Below are positions 2,629-58,260 of a stretch of 64,000 bases of DNA, piece after piece (positions within the stretch are counted from its first letter, which is position 1; every line of letters starts with the position of its first letter). The notes under the pieces were generated by a model. That model did no database searches, was not told the origin of the DNA, and worked only from the letters and a program-made list of their open reading frames with translations. Location: positions 248,001 through 312,000 of the forward strand of contig NZ_LT897781.1 in the NCBI RefSeq assembly GCF_900188315.1. Direction: 5' to 3'. The stretch comes from Marinobacter sp. es.042. GTDB lineage: Bacteria > Pseudomonadota > Gammaproteobacteria > Pseudomonadales > Oleiphilaceae. The translations under genes were made by a program, and so were the position numbers.

Positions 2629-3089
2629 CGCTGGTGTAGCTCGCGCACTGCGTCTGCCAGCGCGGGGAAGGGGCCCTCGGTGGGAACGCCCGGAACCACC
2701 TGGTTGATTGGCAGGGTTGCAACGGGCGGTGGCGCCACGTGCAGTTCGTCCAGCCAGGTTGAAAGCTGCTCTGAAGAGCTTGCGTAGACGATGCGGCCGA
2801 GCCCCACCCAACCATGGGCAGCCGCACACATCGGGCAGTGTTCGCCAGAGGTATAGACCGTTGAAGCTGCTCGCTCGTCCGGGGTCATGTTGGCAGCCGC
2901 CCAACGGGCTATTTCGAACTCCGGGTGGCGAGTCTCATCACCGCCGGCGGTTTCGTTGTGTCCTTCGTATCTGACGGCACCGGTCTCATCCACCAGCACA
3001 GAGCCAAACGGCGGATTCCCGCTATCAACGGCCATTGAAGCCAGTTCTACGCAGCGGGCAAGGTGTTTCATTTCAGTTTCGTAGATCAC
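2598..3089 (-). CDS. Nucleoside/guanine deaminase-like protein (CMP/dCMP deaminase fold)
   Basis: A 163-residue zinc-dependent deaminase. The catalytic HxE appears in HPEFE (about residue 55), and the zinc cysteines in GEHCPMCAAA (about 83-92). The N-terminal GNPPFGSVLVDETG strand matches guanine or nucleoside deaminases, in which water attacks the ring amino group. Translation probably starts at GTG 3089, four to five bases after GAAGGAGG; an internal ATG at 3071 is possible. It is the last gene of a tight minus-strand run (Coq7-like, unknown protein, DNA glycosylase, deaminase; gaps 10-14 bases). Placement beside a DNA glycosylase suggests a role in removing damaged bases or nucleosides, which is inference. 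Confidence 0.8.
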   Translation of the reverse strand: MIYETEMKHLARCVELASMAVDSGNPPFGSVLVDETGAVRYEGHNETAGGDETRHPEFEIARWAAANMTPDERAASTVYTSGEHCPMCAAAHGWVGLGRIVYASSSEQLSTWLDELHVAPPPVATLPINQVVPGVPTEGPFPALADAVRELHQRYALADRNKT

Positions 3090-10139: not shown

Positions 10140-10278
10140 GAGTGATCTCCTTGAAAGATAGAATCCTAACAATACGGTGGCATATTTCATCAGACCATGC
10201 GTATTTTCAGAAATCCCCCGTGCATGATCCATTCACTTCCTGTAGCCTGCGCGGCTTTTTCTTCCGGAGGCATACCTT

Positions 10279-11835
10279 ATGACCGTTCAATCCCAATCTC
10301 TCCCGCGAACCAGAAGCGGGCCGCTAACAGACAGTGATCCCGTTGTTCTCGTGCTCACGATCGGCTTCATACTTCTGTTCGTGGGAGCTTCGATCGTCGA
10401 CAGCGGATACGTGGCCGACCTGATCGGAGCCGGGTTTGCGTGGACTGCAACCTATCTGGGCTCTTTTTTCCAGGTGCTGCTGCTACTCACGTTTTTCATC
10501 GCTATAGGAACAGCCCTGAGCCGTGCCGGCGCTGCCAGAATCGGCGGACTGGATCGGCCGGAGATCGGCCGGTTTCGCTGGTTGTCGATGATCATGTGCA
10601 CCCTGCTGGCCGGGGGCGGAGTGTTTTTTGCTGCCGGGGAACCGGTTTACCACTTCGTCGTCACACCGCCGGCCTTTGATACCGAAGCTGGCTCAGCCTC
10701 GGCCGTTGCTCCTGCAATGGCCCAGTCGTTCACTCACTGGGGTTTCCTGGCCTGGGCCGTGTTGGGCTCCCTCACAGCGCTGGTTCTGACCCGGGCCCAT
10801 TACGGTCAGGGCAAACCCCTGCAGCCGAGAACCCTGTTATACCCGGTGTTTGGTGAGAAGGTCATTCAGGGGCGCCTTGGCGGTGTTATCGATGCCTTCT
10901 GTGTGATTGCCGTGGTAGCGGGGACGGTTGGCCCCATCGGTTTTCTGGCCACTCAGATGAGTTTTGGGTTGCATGAGCTTTTTGGCGTATCGGATGGATA
11001 TGGCACCCAGTTGACGGTATTGGTGGTGCTGGCCGGCGTCTACATGACCTCTGCCATGACCGGACTGCACAAGGGCATTCAGTTGCTGAGCCGTTTCAAC
11101 GTGATTCTGGCTCTGGTCATTGCCGGGGTGATCTTTGTCTTCGGGCCAACGCTCTTCCTGGCCAATACCTACACCCAGTCGATGGGCGAATACGTCACCT
11201 CGTTCTTTGCCATGGCAACCATGACCGCTGAAACCGCCCCGGCCTGGTGGATGAAATGGTGGACGGTGTTCTTCTTTGCCTGGTTCATTGGCTACACGCC
11301 GTTGATGGCGGTCTTCGTTGCCAGAATTTCCCGGGGCCGGACGGTTCGGGAAATGGTTCTGTCGGTGGCTGTTCTGGCGCCCATCGCGACCACCATCTGG
11401 TTCACACTGCTCGGTGGTTCCGGCATTTACCACCAGCTTGCCGGCACCTTCGACCTGACCGAAGCACTGAACAACTTCCGCTTTGATGTGGCCACACTGA
11501 CCGTGGCACAGGCCCTGCCCGGCGGCACCTGGATGGCGGCTGCGATTCTTTTGCTGACAACCATTTTCGTGGCCACCACCGGCGACTCCATGAGCTATTC
11601 CATTGCCATGGTCGGGGCAGGCCATGACGAACCGAACCCGTGGATCCGTGTCTTCTGGGGGGGTGCCATGGCATTGATGGCAGCGATCCTTCTGTACATG
11701 GGGGCGGGCCAGATCGGTGTGCTCCAGCAGTTCATTGTGCTGACGGCGATTCCGGTTTCACTGATCATCCTTCCCTCGCTCTGGACCGGGCCGAAAGCGG
11801 CCATGGCAATGGCGCGTGAGCAAGGGCTGGTCTAG
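10279..11835 (+). CDS. BCCT-family transporter
   Basis: A 518-residue, 12-helix transporter of the betaine/choline/carnitine family. Family features are FFAAGEPVYHF (about residues 116-126), QSFTHWGFLAWAVLGSLTALVL, and the helix 8 block ending ARISRGRTVREMV. The signature tryptophans of betaine carriers (WAWWxSWxP) are replaced by FFAWFIGYTP, so this is a divergent member whose substrate need not be glycine betaine. No long hydrophilic regulatory tails are present. ATG 10279 follows CCGGAGG by eight bases. The MscS channel gene follows after 75 bases on the same strand; both families are linked to osmotic balance. Confidence 0.85.
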   Translation: MTVQSQSLPRTRSGPLTDSDPVVLVLTIGFILLFVGASIVDSGYVADLIGAGFAWTATYLGSFFQVLLLLTFFIAIGTALSRAGAARIGGLDRPEIGRFRWLSMIMCTLLAGGGVFFAAGEPVYHFVVTPPAFDTEAGSASAVAPAMAQSFTHWGFLAWAVLGSLTALVLTRAHYGQGKPLQPRTLLYPVFGEKVIQGRLGGVIDAFCVIAVVAGTVGPIGFLATQMSFGLHELFGVSDGYGTQLTVLVVLAGVYMTSAMTGLHKGIQLLSRFNVILALVIAGVIFVFGPTLFLANTYTQSMGEYVTSFFAMATMTAETAPAWWMKWWTVFFFAWFIGYTPLMAVFVARISRGRTVREMVLSVAVLAPIATTIWFTLLGGSGIYHQLAGTFDLTEALNNFRFDVATLTVAQALPGGTWMAAAILLLTTIFVATTGDSMSYSIAMVGAGHDEPNPWIRVFWGGAMALMAAILLYMGAGQIGVLQQFIVLTAIPVSLIILPSLWTGPKAAMAMAREQGLV

Positions 11836-44152: not shown

Positions 44153-45121
44153 TTACAGCACCTCCGGTTCAGTCGTCCGGTCAGTCTGGGTAGCGGTATC
44201 TCTCAGGCCGCCAAAGCGCTTGTAAAACTTCTCACCGGGCCCCGGAAGCGGCCCAGAGGCGTTCTCGAGGTTCGCGTCCAGCCACTGCTCGGCACGCGCA
44301 TAGATCTGCCGGTAAAGGTTGCGGCAAAGCTGTTTGGCGCTGCGACCCTCCCAGTCACCGGGTAACAGTTCATCCGGCAGCAGCGGATCCCTCAAAAGGA
44401 TCTTGCGGTATTCGTGGATCAGCAGGATCCTGAGGATCAGGCACTCTTCAGCGCTAAGGGTGTCTTCAGATTGCAGTTCGCGCCACAGCGGGCGGAACTG
44501 GCTCAGAAACCGCCTGTATCGACCACCCAGTTCCTCAAGGTTCCAGCTCTCCCTAACCTGCAGCCTCAGAGCTTTGGGGCTTTTCTGTTCCATAGGCATG
44601 GTCTGCATGACGATGGTGTCGTCCAGGGCACCCCATTCCTGGAGCATCGGGATCAGTTCGCTACGCGTAAACCGCGGGTGCTCCATCAACCCGGGCGCCA
44701 TGCTGCCAAAACTGAGCCATTTCAACTCTTCACGGACTTTCTGTCTGAGCTCCGGTGACAGTTGGTTCAGGTAAACCAGGCACCAGCTGCCGCTCCATTC
44801 TTCGGTATCCAGATTGTAAACGTGCTGAAACGCCTGCTCGAACCGACGCAGTCCGGGGCCGGTCAGGCTGTAATAACTGCAACGGCCCACCTTCTCGGTC
44901 TGCAGCCAGGATTCCTGAACCAGTCGATACACCGAGGTGCGGACCAGTCGCTGGCTGATACCCATGGGTTCGACCAGCTTCATCAGGCTGCCCAGCCATA
45001 CATTGCCGCCGCGGGGAACGATGGCATCACCGTAAATGGTGATGATGAGAGAGCCGGCCCGGAGGGGTCGCTTCTTCTGGAAGTTTTTGACGAGCAGTTC
45101 TAGCTGGCTTTTTGCAGTCAT
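44153..45121 (-). CDS. paaX: PaaX, phenylacetate-degradation transcriptional repressor
   Basis: A 322-residue regulator. The N-terminal winged helix is in AGSLIITIYGDAIVPRGGNVWLGSLMKLVEPMGISQRLVRTSVYRLVQESWL (about residues 22-73), typical of PaaX. The larger C-terminal region binds the effector; in E. coli, PaaX represses the paa promoters and is released by phenylacetyl-CoA. The ATG at 45121 is preferred over 45136. It is slightly longer than E. coli PaaX (316). It is divergent from the ABC importer operon; a 273-base gap contains promoters and candidate operators. Confidence 0.93.
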   Translation of the reverse strand: MTAKSQLELLVKNFQKKRPLRAGSLIITIYGDAIVPRGGNVWLGSLMKLVEPMGISQRLVRTSVYRLVQESWLQTEKVGRCSYYSLTGPGLRRFEQAFQHVYNLDTEEWSGSWCLVYLNQLSPELRQKVREELKWLSFGSMAPGLMEHPRFTRSELIPMLQEWGALDDTIVMQTMPMEQKSPKALRLQVRESWNLEELGGRYRRFLSQFRPLWRELQSEDTLSAEECLILRILLIHEYRKILLRDPLLPDELLPGDWEGRSAKQLCRNLYRQIYARAEQWLDANLENASGPLPGPGEKFYKRFGGLRDTATQTDRTTEPEVL

Positions 45122-45277
45122 GGCCTGAGTTCGCAAATAAGAATCAATGAAACATGTTCCACGTATTATGCGGTTCTTACGTGTCAGGTAAAGGTTTGTC
45201 TTTCGATCAGCGGTGCTGGCGTGTTCTGCCAGTGTCGGCTTTACTGAAAGAGCCGCGTTGGCACTCCCGGAAATCAG

Positions 45278-45310: not shown

Positions 45311-45340
45311 TGATATTCGTCAATGGTATCGAATCATACC
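45311..45340. promoter_or_regulatory. Candidate PaaX operator at the importer promoter
   Basis: TGATATTCG (45311-45319) and CGAATCATA (45330-45338) form an imperfect inverted repeat. The nested GGTAT-CGAATC-ATACC (45325-45340) also has matching arms. It sits just downstream of the predicted -10, where a repressor would block transcription. ATGATTCG on the minus strand resembles the TGATTC half-site that I recall for E. coli PaaX. Confidence 0.4.
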
Positions 45341-45394
45341 GGGAGCGAAGAAACAAAAACTCAAGCCCCTGCAAAAAACGGGAGAACAAAAACA

Positions 45395-46552
45395 ATGTTT
45401 AAAACAGTGATTCGTCGCGCAGGCAAATGCGCAGCCGTCGCAGCCGCCGGCCTCATGATGATGAGCGCACAGGCAGCTGAACCCATCAAGATCGGTTCCT
45501 TCCTGTCTGTGACAGGTCCGGCATCCTTTCTAGGCGATCCCGAGCTGAAAACGCTTGAGATGTACGTCGAAAAAATCAACGAAGAAGGTGGTGTACTTGG
45601 TCGTCAGCTGGAGCTGATTCACTACGACGACGTTGGCAACGCCTCCTCTGCACGCAACTTTGCCAGTCGCCTGATCCGTTCGGACCGGGTTGATATCATC
45701 GTTGGCGGCAGTACCACCGGCGCCACCATGGCGGCGGTTCCCCTGATTGAGCAGGCCCAGGTGCCGTTCATCTCCCTGGCCGGTGCGGTCGTTATTACCA
45801 ACCCGGTCAAGAAGTGGGTGTTCAAGACCCCCCAGACTGATCGCATGGCGGCGGAACGTATCCTGAGCGATATGAAAGACCGCGGTATCACCAAGTTCGG
45901 CCTGATCTCAGGCACGGGTGGTTTCGGAAGCTCCGGTCGCACACAGACTCTGGAAGTCGCCGAACAGATGGGCATGGAAGTTGTGGCCGATGTTACCTAC
46001 AGCGGATCTGATACAGACATGACCGCCCAGCTGACCAATATCCGTAACACAAGTGGTGTGGAAGCGGTGCTGAACTTCGGTTTCGGTCAGGGCCCGGCCA
46101 TCGTAACCCGCAACTATGCCCAGTTGGGCATGGAACTCCCGTTCTATCAGTCCCACGGTGTTGCATCCGACAGCTTCCTCGAACTCGCCGGTTCGTCTGC
46201 AGAAGGCCTTCGCCTGCCAGCGTCCCCGCTGCTGGTGCCGGATTCCCTGCCGAACGACGATCCCCAGAAAGAAGTGGTTCAGAACTACAAGGCTGAATAC
46301 GAAGCCCGTTGGGATTCCAAGGTGTCCACCTTCGGTGCCTACGCCTACGATGGCCTGATGCTGGCGGTCCGCGCTATGGAAGAAGCCGGCTCTACCGATC
46401 CGGAAGCCGTTCGTAACGCACTGGAGAATATCCAGGGCTATGTCGGCGTAACCGGTGTATTCAACATGTCACCGGAAGACCACAACGGCCTTGATCCAGA
46501 CTCCTTCCGCATTCTGGAAGTCCAGAATGGCGAATGGAAACTGATCGACTGA
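45395..46552 (+). CDS. Branched-chain-type ABC transporter substrate-binding protein
   Basis: A 385-residue periplasmic protein. Residues 1-26 are a signal peptide ending MSAQAAE. The mature part has the type 1 periplasmic-binding fold of LivJ-like proteins: EPIKIGSFLSVTGPASFLGDPELKTLEMYVEKINEEGG, then DDVGNASSARNFASRLI. Proteins of this branch bind not only leucine-type amino acids but also aromatic acids. Position between paaX and paaZ suggests phenylacetate or a related aromatic acid as ligand, which is inference. ATG 45395 follows GGGAG; a frame open to 45323 adds a hydrophilic stretch that would mask the signal peptide. Confidence 0.88.
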   Translation: MFKTVIRRAGKCAAVAAAGLMMMSAQAAEPIKIGSFLSVTGPASFLGDPELKTLEMYVEKINEEGGVLGRQLELIHYDDVGNASSARNFASRLIRSDRVDIIVGGSTTGATMAAVPLIEQAQVPFISLAGAVVITNPVKKWVFKTPQTDRMAAERILSDMKDRGITKFGLISGTGGFGSSGRTQTLEVAEQMGMEVVADVTYSGSDTDMTAQLTNIRNTSGVEAVLNFGFGQGPAIVTRNYAQLGMELPFYQSHGVASDSFLELAGSSAEGLRLPASPLLVPDSLPNDDPQKEVVQNYKAEYEARWDSKVSTFGAYAYDGLMLAVRAMEEAGSTDPEAVRNALENIQGYVGVTGVFNMSPEDHNGLDPDSFRILEVQNGEWKLID

Positions 46553-46634: not shown

Positions 46635-47510
46635 ATGCTCGCAGAATTCTTACAGTACCTGTTCACCGGGATTACTATCGGTGCGACTTACGCCCTGATA
46701 GCCCTCGGCTTTACCCTCATCTACAACGCCAGTCACGTCATCAACTTCGCCCAGGGCGAGTTTCTGATGATTGGAGGCATGGCTACGGTTTCGCTTACGG
46801 CCATGGGCGTGCCCATGATCCTGGCGGTCGTGTTGGCGGTCATTCTGGCCGGTATTCTTGGCGTCGCCCTGCAGAGGTTTGCGATTGCACCTGCCAAGCA
46901 GGCCGATGTTGTTACCCTGATCATTATCACCATCGGGGCGTCGATCTTTATCCGTGGTATTGCCCAGGTTGTCTGGGGCAAGGAATACCACGTGATGCAG
47001 AATTTCAGTACAGACGAGCCTATTGAAGTGTTCGGAGCAGTATTGAATAGCCAGAGCCTCTGGGTTCTCGGTGTTGGCGCGATCCTGGTGGTCGGCCTGG
47101 TTCTGTTCTTTACCAAGACACTGATTGGCAAGGCTATCCTGGCGACATCCATGAACAAGGAGGCTGCACGCCTTGTCGGTATCCGGACTCAGATGGTTCT
47201 GATGCTGGCATTCATGGTCTCGGCACTACTGGGCTCTGTAGCCGGTATTGTTGTTGCCCCGATCACGTTCACGTCCTACGACATCGGCATCATTCTCGGG
47301 CTGAAGGGCTTTGTGGCGGCTGCCATTGGTGGCCTGGGGAGCGGCGTTGGTGCGGTGGTCGGTGGTCTCTCGCTGGGTATCGTTGAAGCCATGGCGGCCG
47401 GCTACATCTCATCGGACTACAAGGATGCCGTGGCATTCTCCATGATCCTGCTGGTGCTGTTTTTCATGCCCCGCGGATTGTTCGGTGCCAAGGTAGTGGA
47501 GCGCGTCTGA
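46635..47510 (+). CDS. Branched-chain-type ABC transporter permease (LivH-like)
   Basis: A 291-residue inner-membrane permease with about eight helices. It has the LivH opening (FTGITIGATYALIALGFTLIYNASHVINFAQGEFLMIGG), a KEAARLVGI cytoplasmic loop (about residues 175-183) that contacts the ATPases, and the end LLVLFFMPRGLFGAK. It forms the channel with the LivM-like subunit. Its stop overlaps the next start (TGATG). Only a weak ribosome site precedes ATG 46635. Confidence 0.92.
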   Translation: MLAEFLQYLFTGITIGATYALIALGFTLIYNASHVINFAQGEFLMIGGMATVSLTAMGVPMILAVVLAVILAGILGVALQRFAIAPAKQADVVTLIIITIGASIFIRGIAQVVWGKEYHVMQNFSTDEPIEVFGAVLNSQSLWVLGVGAILVVGLVLFFTKTLIGKAILATSMNKEAARLVGIRTQMVLMLAFMVSALLGSVAGIVVAPITFTSYDIGIILGLKGFVAAAIGGLGSGVGAVVGGLSLGIVEAMAAGYISSDYKDAVAFSMILLVLFFMPRGLFGAKVVERV

Positions 47511-48517
47511 TGTTGAATACGTTTATGCAGTCGCGCCTGCGGGGACTGGTGATCCTCGCCCTTATTCTTGTCATTCTGCCCGCGTTTCTGGGCAACCCGT
47601 TCCACTACGAACTGGTTACCCAGATGGCGATCATTGCCGCTACGGTTGTTGGCCTGAACCTTCTGGTAGGTTTTGCCGGCCAGATCAGCCTGGGGCATGC
47701 CGGCTTCTTTGGCCTCGGCGCTTACTTTACCGGCATCGCAACCGGTACTTATGGCTGGTCATCGGTACCTGCTCTGGTGGTTGGAGCCATCGTTGTGGGC
47801 GCGATTGCCTGGATTGTCGGCCGTCCGATTCTGCGTCTGAAAGGCCACTACCTTTCCATGGCAACTCTTGCCGTTGGTTTTATTATTGCCATCATCCTGA
47901 ACAACGAGCGTGCGCTGACCGGCGGGCCAGACGGTATGCCGGTGCCGGCCTTCGAAATCTTTGGCTGGGAGCTGAGCGCGTTTGGTCGCTATTCGCTGTT
48001 CGGTATCACGATCGAAGGTTTCCAGGCCTGGTATATCTTCGCCAGCGTGGTGCTTCTGGTAGCGGTTTGGTTTGCGCTGAACCTCATTGAATCGCCGATT
48101 GGCCGGGCGCTGCGTTCGGTGCACGGCTCGGAAGTGGCTGCCAGCGTTGTCGGTGTGAACACCGCGAAATACAAAAGCCTTGTGTTCGTGATCTCGGCGA
48201 TTTACGCCAGCCTGATGGGCAGTCTTTATGCCCACTTCCAGGGCTTCATTACGCCCGCGGTAGCAAGCTTCGAATTTTCCATCCTGTTCATCACCATGGT
48301 TGTTCTGGGTGGCATGGGCTCGACCTTCGGTGTCATTCTTGGCGCCGTGGTGCTGAAGCTTTTGCCTCAGGTTCTGGCAGATTTCCAGGAGCTGGAACAT
48401 GTCATGTTCGGCCTGATCCTGATGCTCACCATGATCTTTATGCCAAAAGGACTGTTGCCCACACTGACCGCGTTTGTTTCCAAGAAAATGCGCAAGAAAG
48501 CGGGAGGTGAAGCATGA
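47510..48517 (+). CDS. Branched-chain-type ABC transporter permease (LivM-like)
   Basis: A 335-residue permease with about nine or ten helices. Family blocks are NLLVGFAGQISLGHAGFFGLGAYFTGI (about residues 49-75), the coupling loop SPIGRALRSVHGSEVAASVVGVN (about 196-218) and MVVLGGMGSTFGVILGA. It is the second membrane half of the importer. ATG 47510 is joined to the upstream stop; the downstream ATPase start overlaps its end by four bases. Confidence 0.92.
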   Translation: MLNTFMQSRLRGLVILALILVILPAFLGNPFHYELVTQMAIIAATVVGLNLLVGFAGQISLGHAGFFGLGAYFTGIATGTYGWSSVPALVVGAIVVGAIAWIVGRPILRLKGHYLSMATLAVGFIIAIILNNERALTGGPDGMPVPAFEIFGWELSAFGRYSLFGITIEGFQAWYIFASVVLLVAVWFALNLIESPIGRALRSVHGSEVAASVVGVNTAKYKSLVFVISAIYASLMGSLYAHFQGFITPAVASFEFSILFITMVVLGGMGSTFGVILGAVVLKLLPQVLADFQELEHVMFGLILMLTMIFMPKGLLPTLTAFVSKKMRKKAGGEA

Positions 48518-49272
48518 CAGCACTGGTCGAAGTAAAGGGGCTGGATAAAGCCTTTGGTGGTGTCCATGCGGTCGAAGGCGTCAGCTTTTCGGTTGAAGCC
48601 GGACAGGTCTATTCGGTTATCGGCCCCAATGGTGCCGGCAAGACGACGCTGTTTAATCTGATCACAGGGCTTTATACGCCGACCAAAGGCGAGATCCTGC
48701 TGAACGGTGAGAGCACCGCCAAGCTGGAGCCCAATGAACTGGCAGAGCGAGGCATGTGCCGCACGTTCCAGCAGATGCAGATCTGCATGAACATGACCGC
48801 TATCGAAAACGTGATGCTGGGTCGGCACTTGCAGCTCAAAAGCAGCCTGTTTACGACCCTGTTCCGCTTGCCTTCCCTGCGTCGCAATGAAGACGCAGCC
48901 CGCAAGCGTGCGGCGGAACTGATGGAATACGTGGGTTGCGGTGACTACCTGGATACCGAAGCATCGGCGATGTCCTATGGCGCGCTCAAGCGCCTGGAGA
49001 TTGCCCGGGCATTGGCCGCTGAGCCCAAGGTTATCCTTCTGGATGAGCCGGCCGCCGGTTTGAACGCGGTTGAAACCGCTGCCCTGGAGGAACTGATCCG
49101 GAAAATTGCGGATCAGGGCACCACGGTAATGCTGGTTGAGCACGATATGAAACTGGTGATGGGTATTTCCGACCGGTTGCTGGTGCTTAACTATGGCCGT
49201 GTTCTGGCGGAAGGGACCCCCGAGGAAATTCGCCAGAACCCGGATGTTATCGCCGCCTATCTGGGTGGCTGA
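48514..49272 (+). CDS. Branched-chain-type ABC transporter ATPase (LivG-like)
   Basis: A 252-residue nucleotide-binding subunit. Walker A is GPNGAGKTTLFN (about residues 38-49), the signature is AMSYGALKRLEIARALA (about 152-168; the usual LSGG reads MSYG, as is common in LivG), Walker B is VILLDEPAAGLN, and the H-loop is in LVEHDMKLVM. The LivG-type ending with EEIRQNPDVIAAYLGG is clear. ATG 48514 follows GGAGG by six bases. Confidence 0.92.
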   Translation: MTALVEVKGLDKAFGGVHAVEGVSFSVEAGQVYSVIGPNGAGKTTLFNLITGLYTPTKGEILLNGESTAKLEPNELAERGMCRTFQQMQICMNMTAIENVMLGRHLQLKSSLFTTLFRLPSLRRNEDAARKRAAELMEYVGCGDYLDTEASAMSYGALKRLEIARALAAEPKVILLDEPAAGLNAVETAALEELIRKIADQGTTVMLVEHDMKLVMGISDRLLVLNYGRVLAEGTPEEIRQNPDVIAAYLGG

Positions 49273-49289
49273 GCAAGGAGACATTTCAA

Positions 49290-50654
49290 ATGAGCGAGCA
49301 AAATACTGAAATGGCGCCTGCCCAGTCACGCAGTGAGCAGGCCGTACGGATTATTGTTCATGAGCACCAGGCGCTGTGGCGGATTCTGGATCTGCTGGAC
49401 CAGTTGCTGAGTGATATGAACCTTAACGATCAGCGCCCGGATGAGCGGCTGCTGAAGACCATTTTTGATTACATCCAGCACTTCTCCCAGCGGGTGCATA
49501 GCACGCCCACTGACATTGAGCTCTACAAACGGCTCAGTGAGAAATCCCCCGAGACAGCACCTTTGCTGGAAAAGCTGGCCAAGGGCTACGTCATCGGTCA
49601 CGAAAAGCTGGTGGAGTTGCGCCAGTTGTTGGCGGAGTGCGAAAAAGGCTGGCCGGAAGGTCGCGAAGAGTTCAGTCATGCTCTGGCCCGTTTCACCGAA
49701 GCCTTGCGCAAACACATTCGCAAGGAAGAGGGCGTGGTTATTCCACGGGCCCGTAAACTCCTGACCGAGGAAGACTGGCAGCAGATCATTGAAGCGCGGG
49801 ACGTGGAAAACGATCCGCTGTTCGGTGAGCGCGTCCGGGAGGAATTCCGGGAATTGCGGCACCAGATTGTCAGCTATACACCCGAGAAATTCGGTGGTCT
49901 TGGCCTGAAGCACGCAGACCGGGTGACGGCGCCTCATGCCAAAGAAGAGATGCTGTCCATCAAGGGACTGGTAACGTCCTACGGCCAGATTGAAGTGCTG
50001 CATGATGTGGACATCCACATCAACAGTGGTGAGATCGTGTCACTGGTAGGCGCCAATGGTGCTGGCAAATCCACACTGTTGATGACTATCTCGGGACTTC
50101 AGCCCACAGACCGGGGTGCCATCACCTTTGAAGGCAAGGATCTCTCAAAGATCAGTGCCGATCAGAGGGTAGCTGATGGCATCGTCCAGGTGCCTGAAGG
50201 CCGGCAGGTGTTCAAGGACTTGAGCGTTCATGACAACCTGCTGCTGGGCGCCTACACCCGTGGCAAAACGCCCGAGGTAATGGACGATCTGGAACGGATG
50301 TACACCAAGTTTCCAATTCTGCGACAGAAACGCCATAACCTGGCAGGCGAGCTCTCCGGTGGCCAGCAACAGATGCTGGCGATGGGCCGCGCCCTGATGG
50401 CGAAGCCGAGACTGCTGCTTATGGATGAGCCCAGCATGGGTCTGGCGCCCTTGATCATCGAGGAGATCTTCAACATCGTCAAGGAACTCAAGGAAGAGGG
50501 TATTACCATCTTCCTGGTAGAGCAGAATGCCTCCCAGGCGCTGGCTCTGGCGGATCGCGGCTACGTGCTGGAAACCGGCAAGGTGGTGATCGAAGGGACC
50601 GGTCGTGAGCTGCTCAGCAATGAGAAGGTGCGGGAGGCCTATCTGGGCATGTAA
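49290..50654 (+). CDS. Hemerythrin-like domain fused to LivF-type ABC ATPase
   Basis: A 454-residue fusion. Residues ~18-190 form a hemerythrin (HHE) four-helix region: HEH at 24-26, H64, H70, H104, H130, and HIRKEEGVV at 142-150 keep many iron-ligand positions, though the second-helix HHxxE reads HSTPTD. Residues ~220-454 are a complete LivF ATPase: Walker A GANGAGKST (254-262), signature LSGGQQQ (355-361), Walker B LLLMDEP (375-381) and the YLGM end. LivF alone is ~235 residues. Hemerythrin domains bind O2, NO or iron, so the fusion could let oxygen or iron status tune uptake of an aromatic acid whose breakdown needs O2. ATG 49290 follows AAGGAG; no internal start with a good site explains the ATPase alone. 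Confidence 0.88.
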   Translation: MSEQNTEMAPAQSRSEQAVRIIVHEHQALWRILDLLDQLLSDMNLNDQRPDERLLKTIFDYIQHFSQRVHSTPTDIELYKRLSEKSPETAPLLEKLAKGYVIGHEKLVELRQLLAECEKGWPEGREEFSHALARFTEALRKHIRKEEGVVIPRARKLLTEEDWQQIIEARDVENDPLFGERVREEFRELRHQIVSYTPEKFGGLGLKHADRVTAPHAKEEMLSIKGLVTSYGQIEVLHDVDIHINSGEIVSLVGANGAGKSTLLMTISGLQPTDRGAITFEGKDLSKISADQRVADGIVQVPEGRQVFKDLSVHDNLLLGAYTRGKTPEVMDDLERMYTKFPILRQKRHNLAGELSGGQQQMLAMGRALMAKPRLLLMDEPSMGLAPLIIEEIFNIVKELKEEGITIFLVEQNASQALALADRGYVLETGKVVIEGTGRELLSNEKVREAYLGM

Positions 50655-50774: not shown

Positions 50775-52820
50775 TTACTCGGGCTTCTTGGCAACCAGTG
50801 TCAGGATGTCGTAGCTCGCAACCATTTCGTCGTTCTGGTTGTGAACCTGGACGTCCCAGACCACCACACCCTGAGGATGCCCGTCCGGAGATGTCCGACC
50901 CTGATCGATCTTGCGCTTGCAGGTCAGTCGTGCCCGGATGGTGTCCCCCGGGGCAACCGGTTCAATGAAGCGCAGTGTGTCCAGACCATAGTTAGCCAGC
51001 ACGGGGCCCTCGCCGGGATAGACAAACAGGCCGGCAGCAGCGGAAAGCACGAAATAACCGTGGGCAATACGCTTGCCGAACTGGGAGTCCCGCGCTGCGA
51101 TTTCATCAAAGTGCATGTAGAAGTGATCACCGGACAGGCAGCCGAAGTTGACGATGTCAGCTTCGGTAACGGTGCGTCGGTGAGTCAGCAGTGATTCGTT
51201 GATCTGCAGGTCTTCGAAGTGGCGACGGAACGGGTGCACGTCGGTTTCGATCAGATCAGCACCGCGTACATACTCGCGGGTAACCGCAGCCAGCATGCTG
51301 GGTGAGCCCTGGATCGCGGTGCGCTGCAGGTAGTGGTGAACCGCACGGATACCGCCCAGTTCCTCGCCACCACCGGCGCGACCGGGGCCGCCATGCTTCA
51401 GCATGGGCAGGGGCGAACCGTGGCCTGTAGATTCTTTTGCGGCTTCGGCATCCAGCAGGTGCAGGCGGCCATGGAACGCGGCCAGCAGCGGGGCGACCCT
51501 GCCAGCAATGGCGGGATCACGGGTGGTCAGAGTGGTAACCAGGGAACCGCGGCCCCTGGAGCAAAGCTCAACCGCGTCCTCGATGGTGTCGTAAGGAATG
51601 ACGGTAGCAACCGGGCCAAAGGCCTCGATATCGTGGGCACCACAGCCGTTTTCCGGGTTCCGGCAGAGCAGCAGGTGCGGCTCGATGAACGCGCCCTTCT
51701 CGGTGCCATCGCCGGTAGCCTTGAAGTTGTCTTCGCCACCCACAACCAGCTCACTGGTCTTGAGCAACTCCTGGATGTTGGCTTTCACATCTTCCAGCTG
51801 GTCGATGGAGGCCAGTGCACCCATGCGAACGCCTTCGACAGACGGATCACCTACGGTGATCTTGGAGAGTTGCTCTTCCAGTTTTTCGCAGACCGCGTTC
51901 ACCTTATCTTTCGGTACGAAGATACGACGAATGGCGGTACATTTCTGACCGGCCTTGGCAGTCATCTCGCGGCGGATTTCCTTCACGAAGATGTCGAATT
52001 CTTCGTGCTCCGGAGTGACATCCGGCGCCAGAATGGCACTGTTCAGTGAATCGGCCTCGGCGTTGAACGGGATCGAACGATTGATGATGTTCGGATGGTT
52101 CCTGAGCTTTCGTGCCGTTGCGGCCGAGCCTGTGAAGGTCACCACATCCTGCTCTTCCAGATGGTCAAAAAGGTCGCCGGTGCTGCCAATGATCAACTGC
52201 AGACTGCCTTCCGGAAGCGCGCCGGATTCCTGCATCAGGCGGACGGCGAGTTCGGTCACGTAGCAGGTTGAGGTGGCCGGCTTCACGATGGACGGCATGC
52301 CCGCCAGGAAGGTGGGTGCAAACTTTTCGAGCATGCCCCACACCGGGAAGTTGTAGGCGTCAATGTGAACCGCAACGCCACTGCGGGGCACCAGGATATG
52401 GGTGCCTGCAAAGTGGTTGTTCTTGCCCAGCGGAGTCACCGGGCCTTCGTGAACCACGTTGCCCGAGGGAAGTTCGCGGCGGCCCATGCTGGCGTAGGAA
52501 AACAGCGTGCCGAAACCACCGTCGATATCGATGCCGTTATCGCCCTTGGTGGAGCCGGTGTGCATCGACAGCGCGTAGAGTTCTTTCTTGTGTTCCTGGA
52601 GGTACAGGGCCATGGCTTTCAGGGCCAGGGCGCGTTCCTGGAAATCCATCGCCATGAGGTTTTTACCGCCAACCTTACGGCCATACTCAACAGCGTTTTT
52701 GAAATCGAGGGTGTCGTCGTGGGTGTGAGCAACGATCTCGCCGTTAACGGCGCTTGGCAGAGCCTTGGCAGGCTTTTCGCCGACCCACTGGCCGGCAATA
52801 AAACTTTTCAGGACTGACAT
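50775..52820 (-). CDS. paaZ: PaaZ, oxepin-CoA hydrolase / 3-oxo-5,6-dehydrosuberyl-CoA semialdehyde dehydrogenase
   Basis: A 681-residue bifunctional enzyme. Residues ~1-510 are an aldehyde dehydrogenase, with catalytic Cys in KAGQKCTAIRRIFVPKD and the NAD region in VTFTGSAATARKL. Residues ~535-681 are a MaoC-like (R)-hydratase domain (CLSGDHFYMHFDEIAARDSQFGKRIAHGYF) that hydrolytically opens the oxepin ring; the dehydrogenase then oxidises the resulting aldehyde. Length equals E. coli PaaZ (681). ATG 52820 follows GGAG by six bases. It is last in the paaABCDE-Z run, 87 bases after paaE with a hairpin between. Confidence 0.96.
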   Translation of the reverse strand: MSVLKSFIAGQWVGEKPAKALPSAVNGEIVAHTHDDTLDFKNAVEYGRKVGGKNLMAMDFQERALALKAMALYLQEHKKELYALSMHTGSTKGDNGIDIDGGFGTLFSYASMGRRELPSGNVVHEGPVTPLGKNNHFAGTHILVPRSGVAVHIDAYNFPVWGMLEKFAPTFLAGMPSIVKPATSTCYVTELAVRLMQESGALPEGSLQLIIGSTGDLFDHLEEQDVVTFTGSAATARKLRNHPNIINRSIPFNAEADSLNSAILAPDVTPEHEEFDIFVKEIRREMTAKAGQKCTAIRRIFVPKDKVNAVCEKLEEQLSKITVGDPSVEGVRMGALASIDQLEDVKANIQELLKTSELVVGGEDNFKATGDGTEKGAFIEPHLLLCRNPENGCGAHDIEAFGPVATVIPYDTIEDAVELCSRGRGSLVTTLTTRDPAIAGRVAPLLAAFHGRLHLLDAEAAKESTGHGSPLPMLKHGGPGRAGGGEELGGIRAVHHYLQRTAIQGSPSMLAAVTREYVRGADLIETDVHPFRRHFEDLQINESLLTHRRTVTEADIVNFGCLSGDHFYMHFDEIAARDSQFGKRIAHGYFVLSAAAGLFVYPGEGPVLANYGLDTLRFIEPVAPGDTIRARLTCKRKIDQGRTSPDGHPQGVVVWDVQVHNQNDEMVASYDILTLVAKKPE

Positions 52821-52848
52821 GGGGAACTCCATTCGTTTCTGAAACGCG

Positions 52849-52907: not shown

Positions 52908-53987
52908 CTACATCTCGTCGTAGTCCAGAACCACCTTGTCGCTGATCGGGTAGCACTGGCAGGAAAGCACGTAACCGGCTTCCACCTCGTAGTCTTCCAG
53001 AGCAAAGTTCTGGTCCATCTCCACTTCGCCTTCTACCACCTTGGCGCGGCAGGTGGAGCAGACACCGGCCTTGCACGAGTAAGGCAGATCAGCGCCTTCT
53101 TCATTACCGGCATCAAGAATGCTCTTGGTGTCGCGCACCAGCGGGAAAGTCAGCGAGCGGCCATCAGCGATCACCGTTACTTCACTGATTGACTGGGGAT
53201 CGACGTGTGCGGGATCCCTGTCCTTGCGGGCCTGGGGTTTGCCACCGGCCGGGGTAAACAGTTCGAAGTGGATCCTGCTCTTTTCCATGCCGTGGTTGAG
53301 CAGCGAGTCGCGCACGGTCTCGGTCATCATCTGCGGGCCGCAGATAAAGGCCGCCGTGAGCTCCTTGGCATTGATCCAGTGATCGAACAGCTTGTCGCAC
53401 TTCTCGTGGTCGATGCGACCGTTGTAAAGGTCGATGTCCTGTTCTTCACGCGTGAAGATGTACACCAGGTTCAGGCGGGACATGTACTCGTTTTTCAGGT
53501 CCTGCAGCTCGTCACGGAACATGGTGCTGCTGGTGGCCTTGTTGCCGTAGAACAGGGTGACCTCGCTCTTGGGCTCGGTTTCCAGGGTGGTCTTCACGAT
53601 CGAGAGGATCGGAGTAATACCACTGCCGGCAGCTACCGCCAGGTAGTTGCCTTCACGCTCGGGGTCCAGATCAACCGAGAAATGGCCCTGCGGTGGCATG
53701 ACTTCCAGAGTCTGGCCGGGCTTGAGCTGCTCGTTGGCAAAGGTGGAGAAACGACCGCCCGGAACCTGCTTGACGGCGATGCGAAGCTCCTGGTCGTTGA
53801 CACTACGGCAGATCGAGTAGGAGCGGCGAACTTCCTCGCCATCCAGCTTGGTGCGCACGATCAGGTGCTGGCCCTGCTGGTAATGAAACTTGTCTGCCAG
53901 ATCTTCCGGCACGTCAAAAGCAAGTGATACGGCGTTTCTTGTTTCAGGTCTGACCTCTTTGAGGGTCAGTGAGTAAAATTTGTTCAT
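52908..53987 (-). CDS. paaE: PaaE, phenylacetyl-CoA epoxidase reductase
   Basis: A 359-residue flavin/iron-sulfur reductase. The N-terminal FAD domain has RRSYSICRS (about residues 58-66), the NAD(P)H domain has LAVAAGSGITPILSIVKTTL (about 115-134), and the C-terminal plant-type [2Fe-2S] site is SCKAGVCSTCRAK with a later LSCQCYP. It passes electrons from NADPH to the diiron PaaA. ATG 53987 matches the family start MNKFYSLTLKEV; the longer frame to 54125 runs back through paaD. It follows paaD by 13 bases. Confidence 0.95.
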   Translation of the reverse strand: MNKFYSLTLKEVRPETRNAVSLAFDVPEDLADKFHYQQGQHLIVRTKLDGEEVRRSYSICRSVNDQELRIAVKQVPGGRFSTFANEQLKPGQTLEVMPPQGHFSVDLDPEREGNYLAVAAGSGITPILSIVKTTLETEPKSEVTLFYGNKATSSTMFRDELQDLKNEYMSRLNLVYIFTREEQDIDLYNGRIDHEKCDKLFDHWINAKELTAAFICGPQMMTETVRDSLLNHGMEKSRIHFELFTPAGGKPQARKDRDPAHVDPQSISEVTVIADGRSLTFPLVRDTKSILDAGNEEGADLPYSCKAGVCSTCRAKVVEGEVEMDQNFALEDYEVEAGYVLSCQCYPISDKVVLDYDEM

Positions 53988-54000
53988 GATCGTATCGGCT

Positions 54001-54570
54001 CTAGATGCATTTGAAATAGTCGAAGGGCTCGAGGCATTCCTTGCAACGATAAAGGGCTTTGCAGGCGGTGGATCCGAACTCGCTGACCCGTTCGGTGTCT
54101 TTGCTGCCGCAATGAGGGCAGGCAATGACTTCCGGTTCTCCGAGCAGGCTCATTTTGCTGGAGCTGCCCTCGGGTGGCGCGATACCGAACGCCCGAAGCT
54201 TTTCTTTGCCTTCGTCTGTGATCCAGTCGGTGGTCCAGGCAGGGGTCAGCACCTGTTTGATTTTCGGATCGCGGAAGCCGGCGGCGCGTAGCGCCTCGGC
54301 GATCAGCTCCTCAATCAGCTCGGTTGCCGGGCACCCGGAGTAGGTCGGGGTCACGTCAATGGACAGTTCTTTGCCGTCCCAGTGAACCGCCCGGACAATG
54401 CCGAGCTCCACGACACTGACGGCCGGCACTTCGGGGTCTTTGACCTCTTCAAGAAGTGCCCAGATGTCGTCCTCTGTCAGCAGATCGGGGCGGGCGTTGG
54501 CCGGCACCCGATCACTGGCAATCAGAATGTCGACAGCTGACCGGCTGTCTGAATCACCATGTTGTGGCAT
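54001..54570 (-). CDS. paaD: PaaD, phenylacetyl-CoA epoxidase maturation/Fe-S protein
   Basis: A 189-residue protein. A DUF59/MIP18-like domain lies at about residues 30-110 (LLEEVKDPEVPAVSVVELGIVRAV, TPTYSGCPATELIEELI). A C-terminal zinc-ribbon has CPHCGSKDTERVSEFGSTACKALYRCKECLEPF with six cysteines. PaaD is needed for active PaaABCE, probably for cluster or diiron assembly. ATG 54570 has AGAGGG upstream and overlaps paaC by 17 bases; the N-terminal ~20 residues are longer than in E. coli PaaD, so a later start is possible. Confidence 0.92.
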   Translation of the reverse strand: MPQHGDSDSRSAVDILIASDRVPANARPDLLTEDDIWALLEEVKDPEVPAVSVVELGIVRAVHWDGKELSIDVTPTYSGCPATELIEELIAEALRAAGFRDPKIKQVLTPAWTTDWITDEGKEKLRAFGIAPPEGSSSKMSLLGEPEVIACPHCGSKDTERVSEFGSTACKALYRCKECLEPFDYFKCI

Positions 54571-55318
54571 CGGGATAGGCCCTCTGCAGGAACTGCATTT
54601 CTGCCAGGATGAAACCAAGGTGTTCGGTGTGCTCGCCGTGCTTGCCACCCATGTACATCCAGGCGTCTTCCGCGCCAGGAGTCAGGGTTGCCTGGGTGAG
54701 CACCTCGTTGACCATGCCGCGCCAGTCTTTGGCCAGCTGGTCCGTATCCGGGCCAATGCCCGTCTCGGCCATCACACGATCGGTGTCGTCCGGCGTAATA
54801 AGCTCGCCGGTAAAACGCCAGAGGATGTCGACGGCGTCCTGCATGCGGCGGTGGCTTTCTTCAGTGCCATCACCAAAACGCTTCACCCACTCTGAGGAGC
54901 GGCGCAGGTGGTAGGTCACCTCTTTCAGCGCCTTGGCAGCGATGCCGGCAATGCGCTCGTCGCTGGATTCCGTCAGGCTCTTGAGCGTGAAGTAGTGATA
55001 CACGTCGAAGAAGAACTGGCGGCCCATGGTGACGGCGTAGTCCTCGTTGGGCTGCTCGGTCATCAGCAGGTTGCGATACTCGTGGGCGTCCCGGCGGAAG
55101 GCCAGCTTGTCAGCATCGCGGCCATCGTCGATCAGCTCGGCTGCATACTCGTACCAGTTGCGGGCCTGGCCGACGAGGTCGAGGGCAACGTTCATCAGTG
55201 CCATCTCTTCCTCAAGCGCCGGGGCCTTGCCACACAGCTCGCAAAGGCGCTGGCCAAGGATCATGTCGGAATCTGCAAGGCGCAGCAGGTATTCCTTTAA
55301 TGCTTCTGTTTGTGTCAT
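54554..55318 (-). CDS. paaC: PaaC, phenylacetyl-CoA epoxidase structural subunit
   Basis: A 254-residue ferritin-like helical protein. Typical blocks are LLRLADSDMILGQRLCELCGKAPALEEEMALMNVALDLVGQARNWYEYAAEL (about residues 11-62) and EVTYHLRRSSEWVKRFGDGTEESHRRMQDAVDILW. It lacks a full diiron site and stabilises PaaA. ATG 55318 lies 12 bases after paaB. Confidence 0.96.
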   Translation of the reverse strand: MTQTEALKEYLLRLADSDMILGQRLCELCGKAPALEEEMALMNVALDLVGQARNWYEYAAELIDDGRDADKLAFRRDAHEYRNLLMTEQPNEDYAVTMGRQFFFDVYHYFTLKSLTESSDERIAGIAAKALKEVTYHLRRSSEWVKRFGDGTEESHRRMQDAVDILWRFTGELITPDDTDRVMAETGIGPDTDQLAKDWRGMVNEVLTQATLTPGAEDAWMYMGGKHGEHTEHLGFILAEMQFLQRAYPDATTW

Positions 55319-55330
55319 GGGTACCGCTCC

Positions 55331-55612
55331 TTACATGTGTCCGACTTCATCGGGCAGCTTGTAGAAGGAAGCGTGCCGGTAAACCTTGTCTTCCGACGGA
55401 TCGAAAAGCACTTCCTTCTCGTCGGACGCGGACGCCGTGATCGCGTCGGAGGGAACCACCCAGAGACTTACGCCTTCGTTACGGCGTGTGTAAAGGTCAC
55501 GGGCGTTTTCCATGGCCATCTCGGCGTCTGCGGCATGCACGCTGCCCACGTGTTTGTGGTTCAGGCCGTGCTTGGACCGTACAAAGACTTCGTAAAGGCG
55601 CCATTCAGACAT
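55331..55612 (-). CDS. paaB: PaaB, phenylacetyl-CoA epoxidase subunit
   Basis: A 93-residue subunit that bridges PaaAC dimers. SEWRLYEVFVRSKHGLNHKHVGSVHAADAEMAMENARDLYTRRNEGVSLWVVPS is the conserved PaaB sequence pattern, and the length is as expected. It follows paaA by 17 bases. Confidence 0.96.
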   Translation of the reverse strand: MSEWRLYEVFVRSKHGLNHKHVGSVHAADAEMAMENARDLYTRRNEGVSLWVVPSDAITASASDEKEVLFDPSEDKVYRHASFYKLPDEVGHM

Positions 55613-55629
55613 GTTGTGTTCCTCCGGTA

Positions 55630-56622
55630 TCAGGCGGCTTGTGCGCGCTGTTTTTGTTTTTCGGCATAGGCGACGGCCGCTTCACGGACCCAGGCACCTT
55701 CGTCAATAGCGTTCTTGCGAGTCTTGATGCGCTCGCGGTTGCAGGGACCGTTGCCCTTGAGGACGTCGTAGAACTCCTGCCAGTTGATTTCGCCGAAATC
55801 GTAATGGCCGGTTTCTTCGTTCCACTTCAGGTCCGGATCCGGTGCAGTGCAGCCAAGGAATTCGAGCTGCGGCACGGTCTGGTCAATAAACATCTGGCGC
55901 AGTTCGTCGTTGCTCTTGCGCTTGATCTTCCAGGCCATGGACTGCTGGGAGTTCGGCGACTCGTCGTCATGCGGTCCGAACATCATCAGTGCCGGCCACC
56001 ACAGACGGTTAATGGCGTCCTGCACCATGGCTTTCTGTTCGTCGGTGCCTCCGCGCATCATGTCCAGCAGGATCTGGTAACCCTGACGCTGATGGAAGCT
56101 CTCTTCCTTGCAGATGCGGATCATGGCGCGGGAATAGGGGCCATAGGAGGTACGCTGCAGCACCACCTGGTTAACGATGGCGGCGCCATCCACCAGCCAG
56201 CCAACGGCACCCATGTCCGCCCAGTTCAGGGTCGGGTAGTTGAAGATGCTGGAGTACTTGGCTTTGCCCTGGTGCAGCTTTTCGATCTCTTCGTCACGGT
56301 CAGCACCCAGGGTTTCCATGGCGCTGTACAGGTACAGGCCGTGGCCCGCTTCGTCCTGAATCTTGGCCATCAGCTGGAGCTTGCGCTTGAGCGTAGGCGC
56401 GCGGGTAACCCAGTTGCCTTCCGGCAGCATGCCGACCACTTCGGAGTGGGCGTGCTGGGAAATCTGGCGAATCAGGGTCTTCCGGTAGCCTTCCGGCATC
56501 CAGTTTTTGGGTTCGATTTTGGTTTCGGCGTCGACCTTTTCCTGAAAGTCGCGCTCTTCGGGCGACATCTCTTCTTTGGTCTTGAGGCGCTTGGCGCCGG
56601 TTTCAACGAGCTGGGCGTACAT
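55630..56622 (-). CDS. paaA: PaaA, phenylacetyl-CoA epoxidase catalytic diiron subunit
   Basis: A 330-residue ferritin-like oxygenase. The iron-ligand helices are visible in [20 protein letters not shown] (about residues 88-107) and [19 protein letters not shown] (about 173-191). With PaaBCE it epoxidises the aromatic ring of phenylacetyl-CoA using O2. ATG 56622 is chosen because GGAGG lies nine bases upstream; an in-frame TTG at 56628 is too close. It is the first gene of paaABCDE-Z. Confidence 0.97.
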
Positions 56623-56707
56623 AAACAAATACCTCCGGATCGGGCTTGTTGTTCTGTTGTCCGTGAACAGAGAACCCTCAATAACAACTAAGGGTCAATG
56701 ACTCCAT

Positions 56708-56949: not shown

Positions 56950-58260
56950 TTACTGGTTACGGCGATCAAATACGCGCTTGGCCTTGCCTTCCGAGCGTGC
57001 CAGACGGTTGGTTTCCACCACCTCGACACGGGTGCTGATGCCGATGTAGGACTTGATGTGGTGCGCCAGTTCCTTGGCCGCCGCAGCGCGACTCTCGGGG
57101 GTGTCGGTTACGCCGGGTTTCAGTTCGGTCCGGATATCCACGCAGTCCAGGTTACCTTCCTTGTAAACCTCGATCTCGTAGTGCGGTGCCAGGGCCTCGC
57201 ACTTGAGCACCTGCTCCTCGATCTGGCTCGGGAACACGTTGACGCCGCGAATGATCAGCATGTCGTCGCTGCGGCCGGTAATCTTGTCAATCCGGCGCAT
57301 CGGGCGCGCTGTACCCGGAAGCAGGCGGGTGAGGTCGCGGGTGCGGTAGCGCAGAATCGGCAGGGCCACCTTGGTCAATGACGTGAAGACCAGCTCACCG
57401 TATTCACCGTCTGGCAGCACTTCACCGGTTTCCGGGTTGATGATTTCCGGATAGAAGTGATCTTCCCAGATGGTCGGGCCGTCTTTGGTTTCAATACATT
57501 CCATGCCCACGCCCGGACCCATGACTTCCGACAGACCATAGATATCAAGAGCCTCGATGCCGAGGCGCTCCTCGATCTCTGATCGCATGGCGTTGGTCCA
57601 TGGTTCTGCGCCGAAAATGCCGAGCCGCAGGGGCAGTTTATGGGGATCAATGCCCTGACGCTCCATTTCATCGGCAATGTTCAGCATGTAGGACGGCGTC
57701 ACCATGATGATGTCCGGTTCGAAATCCTTGATCAGCTGGACCTGCTTCTCGGTCTGGCCGCCGGACATCGGAATAACCGTGCAACCAAGGCGTTCGGCGC
57801 CGTAGTGGGCGCCCAGACCGCCGGTGAACAGGCCATAGCCATAGGCTACATGAACCTTGTCGCCACGGGAGCCGCCGCCGGCCCGGATAGACCGTGCCAC
57901 AATGTCGGCCCAGGTGTTGATATCACTCTGGGTGTAACCGACTACGGTTGGCTTGCCGGTGGTACCACTGGAGGCGTGCACCCGCACCACGTCGGACATG
58001 GGGGTGGCAAACATGCCAAACGGGTAGTTGTCCCGCAGATCCGCCTTGGTGGTGAATGGCACCTTGGCCAGGTCTTCCAGCGAGTTGATGTCCATGGGCT
58101 TCAGACCCTGGTCACCAAACGCTTTGCGGTAGAACGGCACGTTGGTGTAGGCATGGACAACGCTCCAGCGCAGACGCTGCAGCTGTTCGTGGCGCAGCTC
58201 ATCAATGCTGGCGGTTTCCATGCGGTCAAGTTTGCCAAGTTTTTGCAGTGGTAAGGTCAT
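56950..58260 (-). CDS. paaK: PaaK, phenylacetate-CoA ligase
   Basis: A 436-residue ANL-superfamily ligase. The ATP loop is ASSGTTGKPTVVGYTQSD (about residues 92-109). Later landmarks are DIYGLSEVMGPGVGMEC (about 230), YRTRDLTRLLPG (about 300) and the C-terminal hinge KITGRSDDMLIIRGVNVFPSQIEE. It activates phenylacetate to phenylacetyl-CoA, the pathway's first step and the source of the PaaX effector. The ATG at 58260 follows AGGACAG. It lies 59 bases after paaJ and is the last gene of paaGHIJK. Confidence 0.97.
   Translation of the reverse strand: MTLPLQKLGKLDRMETASIDELRHEQLQRLRWSVVHAYTNVPFYRKAFGDQGLKPMDINSLEDLAKVPFTTKADLRDNYPFGMFATPMSDVVRVHASSGTTGKPTVVGYTQSDINTWADIVARSIRAGGGSRGDKVHVAYGYGLFTGGLGAHYGAERLGCTVIPMSGGQTEKQVQLIKDFEPDIIMVTPSYMLNIADEMERQGIDPHKLPLRLGIFGAEPWTNAMRSEIEERLGIEALDIYGLSEVMGPGVGMECIETKDGPTIWEDHFYPEIINPETGEVLPDGEYGELVFTSLTKVALPILRYRTRDLTRLLPGTARPMRRIDKITGRSDDMLIIRGVNVFPSQIEEQVLKCEALAPHYEIEVYKEGNLDCVDIRTELKPGVTDTPESRAAAAKELAHHIKSYIGISTRVEVVETNRLARSEGKAKRVFDRRNQ

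Follow-up and report, generated by a model that had tools for sequence, protein, structure and literature searches.

A hemerythrin-like domain fused to the LivF-type ATPase of a probable arylacetate importer beside the phenylacetate genes of Marinobacter sp. es.042

We analysed a stretch of 64,000 nucleotides from Marinobacter sp. es.042 (contig NZ_LT897781.1, positions 248,001 to 312,000, forward strand), called the window below, in which the gene at 49290..50654 (+) joins a hemerythrin-like (Hr) domain to a LivF-type ATP-binding cassette (ABC) ATPase in one frame of 454 residues, open without a stop. This fusion, Hr-LivF, is the last gene in a single row that encodes a complete LIV-type importer: the substrate-binding protein (45323..46552), a LivH-type permease (46635..47510), a LivM-type permease (47510..48517) and a LivG-type ATPase, the second nucleotide-binding subunit, which is unfused (48514..49272), all on the plus strand. 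Divergent from the importer lies the gene for the PaaX repressor (44153..45136, minus strand; TIGR02277, 301.8 bits against a cut-off of 264.55). Hr-LivF is convergent with a set of minus-strand genes for PaaZ (50775..52832; TIGR02278 above cut-off), for PaaE, PaaD, PaaC and PaaA of the 1,2-phenylacetyl-CoA epoxidase (52908..56628; all four above cut-off in a scan without PaaB) and for the phenylacetate-CoA ligase PaaK (56950..58260; TIGR02155, 719.8 bits, cut-off 646.3). Beyond PaaK, 3-oxoadipyl-CoA thiolase, PaaH and PaaG all score above their curated cut-offs, and the window thus holds an aerobic paa cluster in which PaaX, PaaA, C, D, E, PaaZ, PaaK, PaaG and PaaH are all recognized by their family models. 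The importer's cargo is probably phenylacetate or a close arylacetate, judging from these aerobic neighbours and from the anaerobic pad genes that adjoin some of its orthologues.

A sequence-only reading had described roughly 200 N-terminal residues of an HHE hemerythrin-like domain ahead of an intact LivF-type ATPase, and the domain searches and structure prediction agree with it. Pfam Hemerythrin (HHE), PF01814, matches residues 18-154 (49341..49751, plus strand) at E 1.4e-9 and 39 bits, above the cut-off of 25.3, and is followed by a conserved C-terminal extension of the domain at residues 155-205 (49752..49904, plus strand; from the alignment), of which W163, D175, P176 and F178 recur in stand-alone HHE proteins and in HHE domains fused to UspA. 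The ABC core (Pfam ABC_tran) occupies residues 237-382 (49998..50435, plus strand), with GANGAGKST, LSGGQQQ and LLLMDEP in the translation. Because the E. coli LivF equivalog NF008626 gives 279.3 bits, under its cut-off of 441, the ATPase is by this measure LivF-type and distinct from leucine LivF itself. Helices are predicted at residues 14-46, 52-69, 87-119 and 125-157, and the AlphaFold2 model (predicted local distance difference test score 83.8) is a four-helix bundle of hemerythrin type, whose nearest folds are 2p0n and 3cax at the top and FBXL5 next, tied with other bundles. When residues 1-205 were searched by sequence against the PDB, no useful match emerged, and a profile, A2, reached YtfE only at E ~0.1.

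The extension is very probably translated and under selection, because it lies in a single frame with the ATPase, a ribosome-binding-site-like AAGGAG (49275..49280, plus strand) stands 9 nt 5' of the ATG at 49290, and the ratio of nonsynonymous to synonymous substitution rates (dN/dS) is low. Across 11 same-length orthologues, hand-picked from the 68 loci of a contig scan described below, dN/dS for codons 1-216 was 0.03-0.11 in the ten with an estimable synonymous rate (L052 was saturated there), and 0.02-0.08 for the ATPase half in the same comparison. Within the window's genome, the query alone among 72 ATPase matches reaches residues before 205. An assembly artefact is not supported, as many separate contigs carry Hr-LivF.

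We compared the metal site with that of YtfE, whose ligands are given in the available portion of PMC9268430 as H84, H129, E133, H160, H204 and E208: H84 and H204 hold iron 1, H129 and H160 hold iron 2, and E133 and E208 bridge. When 39 HHE domains fused to LivF were aligned jointly with 4 others and read by motif and spacing, the six diiron positions map to residues 26, 70, 74, 100, 142 and 146 of the window protein, which has H, H, T, Y, H and E there; the 30 residues from H70 to position 100 align free of gaps. The full YtfE pattern (H, HxxxE, H, HxxxE) is thus absent. Kept, according to the alignment, are H26 at an iron 1 position (codon 49365..49367), H70 at an iron 2 position (49497..49499) and the helix 4 HxxxE of H142 and E146, which serves iron 1 and a bridge (49713..49727). 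The canonical bridging Glu of helix 2 is lost at T74 (49509..49511), and the canonical helix-3 His of iron 2 is replaced by an invariant Tyr, Y100 (49587..49589); all of these codons are on the plus strand. The window protein would therefore retain the iron 1 residues and one bridge, with iron 2 short of a bridge and one His.

Among the rows of a 96-row alignment that have a letter at the position, H26 is found in 94/94, H142 and E146 each in 95/95, Y100 in 94/94 and H70 in 90/94, while position 74 is T in 60 rows, E in 14 and mixed elsewhere; in the joint alignment, position 70 is Q in seven Ectothiorhodospiraceae rows. Eight of the 24 columns conserved in six-ligand and outgroup rows are not kept (70, 71, 72, 74, 75, 79, 85 and 100), and these cluster around iron site 2. 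The sequence-only reading had listed H24, H26, H64, H70, H104, H130, H142 and E146 as ligands, a list that proved largely wrong: H26, H70, H142 and E146 do fall on canonical diiron positions, and we rejected H24 (H in only 11/96 rows), H104 (D or N in 25/96 rows) and H64 and H130, which are conserved in the lineage (87/96 and 92/96) but are not His in the six-ligand rows. It was correct that the second-helix motif is partly degenerate, T74 standing in for Glu, and with Y100 helix 3 is degenerate as well.

Eleven fused rows keep all six ligands (L064, L078, L114, L115, L137, L138, L139, L142, P0105, P0109 and P0112; L114 and L142 belong to one genus), and L073 keeps the helix-3 His and has lost the helix-2 Glu. 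Searched with the binding protein, 11 of 369 genomes of the class matched at E <=1e-60, the window's own included; of the other ten, three have PaaX and a fusion, five have an importer with a plain LivF, and two (G451 and G655), in which no full orthologous importer surrounds the match, were left out of the contrast between fused and unfused forms. G555 (L115/L116) has homologues of PaaX and PaaA, C, D and E together with a six-ligand fusion, and a PaaK-like frame recognized by eye. G438 (L114) has PaaX (49%), a six-ligand fusion and a PaaA-like protein that scores 81.2 bits with PF05138 and 75.8 with the PaaA equivalog, under the cut-off of 280; G561 resembles G438, spread over two contigs. 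The PaaA-like proteins of L114 (11952-12761, minus strand) and L064 (4590-5405, plus strand; 22% identical to PaaA) are located between PaaX and the importer, and could be oxygenases of another kind that this importer supplies. We also observed, in G098 of the window's own genus, a second importer with an Hr-LivF fusion that keeps six ligands (L078, 4015-5310, minus strand; P0103), adjoining a 2Fe-2S/FAD/NAD reductase, a TetR gene and a DcaP-like porin, with a small frame (2689-3042, minus strand) that looks by eye like a Rieske ferredoxin.

Orthologous importers in five genomes of five families (L117-L121) have a plain LivF, and in all five a protein with two CBS domains follows directly after livF (L117, 4261-4932, minus; L118, 6478-7131, plus; L119, 11753-12478, plus; L120, 12813-13466, plus; L121, 2191-2859, minus). 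Across 79 loci from genomes with the fusion, of which some overlap or adjoin, three CBS queries gave no match at E 1e-3. Three of the five unfused importers adjoin anaerobic phenylacetate (pad-like) or benzoyl-CoA genes. L120 has the phenylglyoxylate dehydrogenase subunits PadG (769.1, cut-off 700) and PadE (333.8, cut-off 300), and L117 has 6-hydroxycyclohex-1-ene-1-carbonyl-CoA dehydrogenase (452.5, cut-off 338.65). A molybdenum enzyme of L120, which we read as PadB from its neighbours, no family model naming it, is matched at E <=1e-60 in 3/5 unfused genomes, its own included, and in 0/22 others tested. The PaaK-like ligase of L121 scores 611, below the cut-off of 646.3, and no pathway gene was seen at L119; PF05138 scored above cut-off in 0/5 of these genomes. 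The separate CBS protein seems to be what corresponds, in the anaerobic setting, to the hemerythrin module.

For the history of these forms we relied on a five-gene tree, because a LivF-only tree was weakly resolved, with long rows L073, U_L002 and U_L003, and was set aside. The five-gene tree (quick search, midpoint root) covers 35 importers: the window's, 29 from fused loci and 5 from unfused ones. It omits near-duplicates as well as loci whose importer is incomplete, L065, L073, L138 and L142 among them. The 24 degenerate rows form one clade and the 5 unfused another, each with an SH-aLRT branch support of 100, and the 6 six-ligand rows lie between them, L078 on a long branch. The simplest reading would be one fusion with an intact diiron module whose iron site 2 was later lost on the branch leading to Allopseudospirillum, Nitrincola, Marinospirillum, Marinobacter and Ectothiorhodospiraceae; because the rooting is unsure, the unfused clade may instead have lost the domain.

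Residues 1-216, searched against 5.77 billion proteins, returned 95 matches, 93 of them with both Pfam domains, and 68 loci came from scanning genome contigs for two conserved stretches. With genes called within the fetched stretch at a minimum of 45% identity over at least 30% of the query, the Hr domain was found at all 68, LivG at 66, the binding protein at 64, PaaX at 56 and at least one paa gene at 58. The ten without any paa gene are from Mangrovitalea, Nitrincola and eight Ectothiorhodospiraceae; PF05138 is present in the Mangrovitalea and Nitrincola genomes (G106 and G105). Among 100 genomes of the genus, the domain occurs in 54 (near-whole-profile matches in open frames of 394-535 residues, taken as the fusion and not each inspected) and PF05138, which covers PaaA and PaaC, in 55; both are present in 53 and neither in 44, one genome having the domain only and two PF05138 only, an agreement of 97/100. 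In the domain-only genome, G061, the contig ends within paaZ, and one of the two PF05138-only genomes, G038, has a weak match of 86.6 bits. Of 21 fusion genomes chosen mostly outside the genus, 12 have PF05138; those without are eight Ectothiorhodospiraceae (G110-G117), whose PaaK-like ligases, at 565-577 bits, do not reach the TIGR02155 cut-off, and the draft G119, whose locus L037 breaks off in paaZ.

Farther out, we searched the order of G555 (54 genomes) with the domain at E 1e-25 and matched ten genomes, six with fusions (G555, G771, G729, G731, G739 and G740); the frames of 201-256 residues in G751, G752, G753 and G733 are probably stand-alone domains. PaaA, C, D and E are encoded close to the fusion in both G771 and G731, together with PaaX in G771; no paa genes are shown on the fusion contig of G729. 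The protein of G739 is identical to a Halorhodospira abdelmalekii entry and that of G740 is nearly that of H. halochloris. PF05138 occurs in 14/54 genomes of this order, G555, G771, G729 and G731 among them. In the window's own order, the A2 profile matched 53/244 genomes. Of these, 6 are fusions from the same genus; the remaining 47, at E 2.6e-24 or weaker, we read as ordinary HHE proteins. At 14 fetched loci of the weaker matches (L087-L100) no LivF match passed the filter, and an ABC ATPase is encoded close by, on the other strand, at L096 and L099.

A search for relatives with residues 1-205 gave eight matches: two truncated ATPase entries that were already known, five short members of this family (P0097-P0101) and P0102, a stand-alone HHE protein of 31% identity. 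P0097 (234 residues, on a 206,708-base contig) has a 78%-identical Hr part with unrelated residues in place of the ATPase; its gene may be split or have a broken frame, or the protein may genuinely stand alone. In P0113, P0114 and P0115 a related HHE domain is joined to a universal stress protein domain, and the existence of such UspA-fused relatives indicates that the HHE module is mobile among effectors. Two Hr-LivF genes stand apart from a full importer. That of Oceanospirillum sanctuarii (L073, 9959-11302, plus strand) adjoins PaaX; within 20 kb no further importer gene was matched, and its ATPase is divergent, with LSAGEQQ instead of LSGGQQQ; it is an orphan and perhaps a regulator. Near that of Thiorhodospira sibirica (L065, ~10001-11341, plus strand), no LivG, LivH, LivM or binding protein was matched.

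Our best account, to which we give about an even chance, is that the second ATPase of this LIV-type importer has an N-terminal hemerythrin-like regulatory module through which an aerobic signal gates arylacetate uptake. The module would report oxygen, redox, nitric oxide (NO) or iron status to the ATPase, and uptake would thereby be matched to the oxygen-requiring PaaABCE route. The ancestral module probably had the complete diiron site still found in relatives, for which gating by oxygen or redox is plausible. In the window's lineage, where the domain is probably a modified regulator, iron site 2 would have been lost while the iron 1 set (H26, H142 and E146) and the helix packing were retained, and the module may either use one metal, bound by 2-His-1-Glu with Y100 perhaps taking part, or work without metal as an allosteric or docking domain. 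At importers beside anaerobic-pathway genes, a separate CBS-domain protein would take its place, so that the importer's regulator seems to be matched to the pathway: hemerythrin where that is aerobic paa, CBS where it is anaerobic pad. We hold only tentatively to the fuller version of this idea, in which the sensor is exchangeable: a fused diiron hemerythrin through which oxygen or redox gates the ATPase with paa, a separate two-CBS protein with pad, and, in Marinobacter and Ectothiorhodospiraceae, a diiron site converted to a mononuclear one of 2-His-1-Glu type, alongside an invariant Tyr.

Several observations weigh against this account. Because two of the six ligands are replaced, a diiron oxygen site, and with it hemerythrin-type oxygen binding, is unlikely in the window protein; of the sequence-only proposal that aromatic-acid uptake is gated by oxygen or diiron status, the placement of the importer in an aerobic paa cluster stands, and a normal diiron oxygen site is not supported for this protein. 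Foldseek alone found no PDB match for the Hr domain at E <=0.001, and unrelated helical bundles tie with FBXL5 in the fold comparison. The substrate is assigned from neighbouring genes. Since the unfused and the degenerate rows each form one clade, regulator and pathway changed together on one branch only. G097, of the same genus, has paa genes and no domain match, with no importer gene in the 20 kb fetched of a 33-kb contig, the rest of the genome not having been searched. The eight Ectothiorhodospiraceae have the fusion without PaaA or PaaC, and a PadB-like query found no match in them. In the order of G555, no fusion was found in 10/14 PF05138 genomes, so that paa does not need the Hr module, and 2/6 fusion genomes (G739 and G740) lack PF05138. 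These Ectothiorhodospiraceae and order-of-G555 counts weaken any strict tie of the fusion to PaaABCE; the proposed link to paa genes is supported by the 97/100 agreement in the genus and by distant six-ligand fusions beside paa-type genes.

Among the alternatives, the one that survives best, though we consider it doubtful, is that in the window's lineage the domain has ceased to be a sensor and persists, as a helical bundle without metal, because it helps the ATPase to assemble, dock or remain stable. The missing helix-2 Glu and helix-3 His, the unkept columns around iron site 2 and, in the model, a predicted helix 2 that stops at residue 69 are all in its favor, but H26, H142 and E146 are invariant even in the Ectothiorhodospiraceae rows without H70, and the invariant Y100 looks like a chosen replacement instead of decay. 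PaaA is a diiron enzyme, and sensing of iron or NO, or iron delivery, in the manner of FBXL5 or the repair protein YtfE could limit uptake when iron for the epoxidase is short. The FBXL5 hemerythrin domain is among the nearest folds, the PaaA and PaaC genes adjoin Hr-LivF, and YtfE is reviewed as an iron donor in the available part of PMC9268430; we nevertheless think this improbable, as the two-iron site of the window protein is incomplete and an iron donor would not be expected on an ABC ATPase. That mostly a short ATPase is made from M221, an ordinary LivF with a hitch-hiking N-terminal extension, is very improbable: residue 221 is Met in 80/96 homologues and a purine-rich stretch precedes its codon, but that stretch abuts the ATG and so is poorly spaced, residue 221 is L or I in the other 16/96, AAGGAG stands 9 nt before 49290, and codons 1-216 are under purifying selection.

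The paa pathway is usually described as being controlled at transcription, by PaaX. An Hr module on the importer ATPase would let oxygen, redox or iron control uptake directly at the post-translational level, and oxygen or diiron gating, if true, would let substrate in only when the epoxidase can work. Because orthologues differ in both module and metal site, the question of gating is testable by comparing natural variants, that is, orthologous importers with and without the module and with intact or broken metal sites.

Regulatory domains on ABC ATPases are familiar from CBS in OpuA, TOBE in MalK and NIL in MetN. The likeness is that transport would be controlled by a sensory domain carried by the nucleotide-binding subunit or lying next to it, but none of these is a hemerythrin, and, compared with OpuA, the CBS protein here is a separate gene found only beside the unfused orthologues. 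With the HHE proteins YtfE (RIC), FBXL5, NMB1532 and PF0695, the domain shares the PF01814 profile and fold; it has 4/6 of the YtfE ligand positions, the equivalents of Glu133 and His160 being Thr and Tyr. Mycobacterial hemerythrin-like proteins with a Tyr iron ligand resemble it in having a tyrosine near the metal site but, in the available part of PMC8913304, keep a two-iron site, unlike the window protein. Hemerythrin domains fused to effectors are described in PMC9388753 for DcrH, Bhr-DGC and Bhr-HD-GYP. These sensors have five His, one Glu and one Asp, and chemotaxis or cyclic di-GMP outputs; Hr-LivF, unlike them, is HHE-type, has lost two ligand positions and is on an ABC ATPase.

The sequence-only reading knew of no importer ATPase with such a domain, and we found none in the open-access literature searched, where the papers returned, on Acinetobacter quorum sensing and Campylobacter physiology, do not concern such a fusion to judge by their titles and the opening of their abstracts; the main text of PMC4919030, on hemerythrin domain architectures, has no "ABC" or "transporter", its figures and supplement being outside that scope. 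A hemerythrin-like domain on a transport ATPase is, however, known: the nearest described case we found is that of the P1B-5 metal ATPases, which, as described in PMC9388753, combine a transport ATPase with a hemerythrin-like domain that has a non-canonical ligand set and an unsettled sensing role. Those enzymes are P-type, have a metal substrate and have the domain at the C terminus, whereas Hr-LivF is the ABC ATPase of a probable organic-acid importer and has it at the N terminus.
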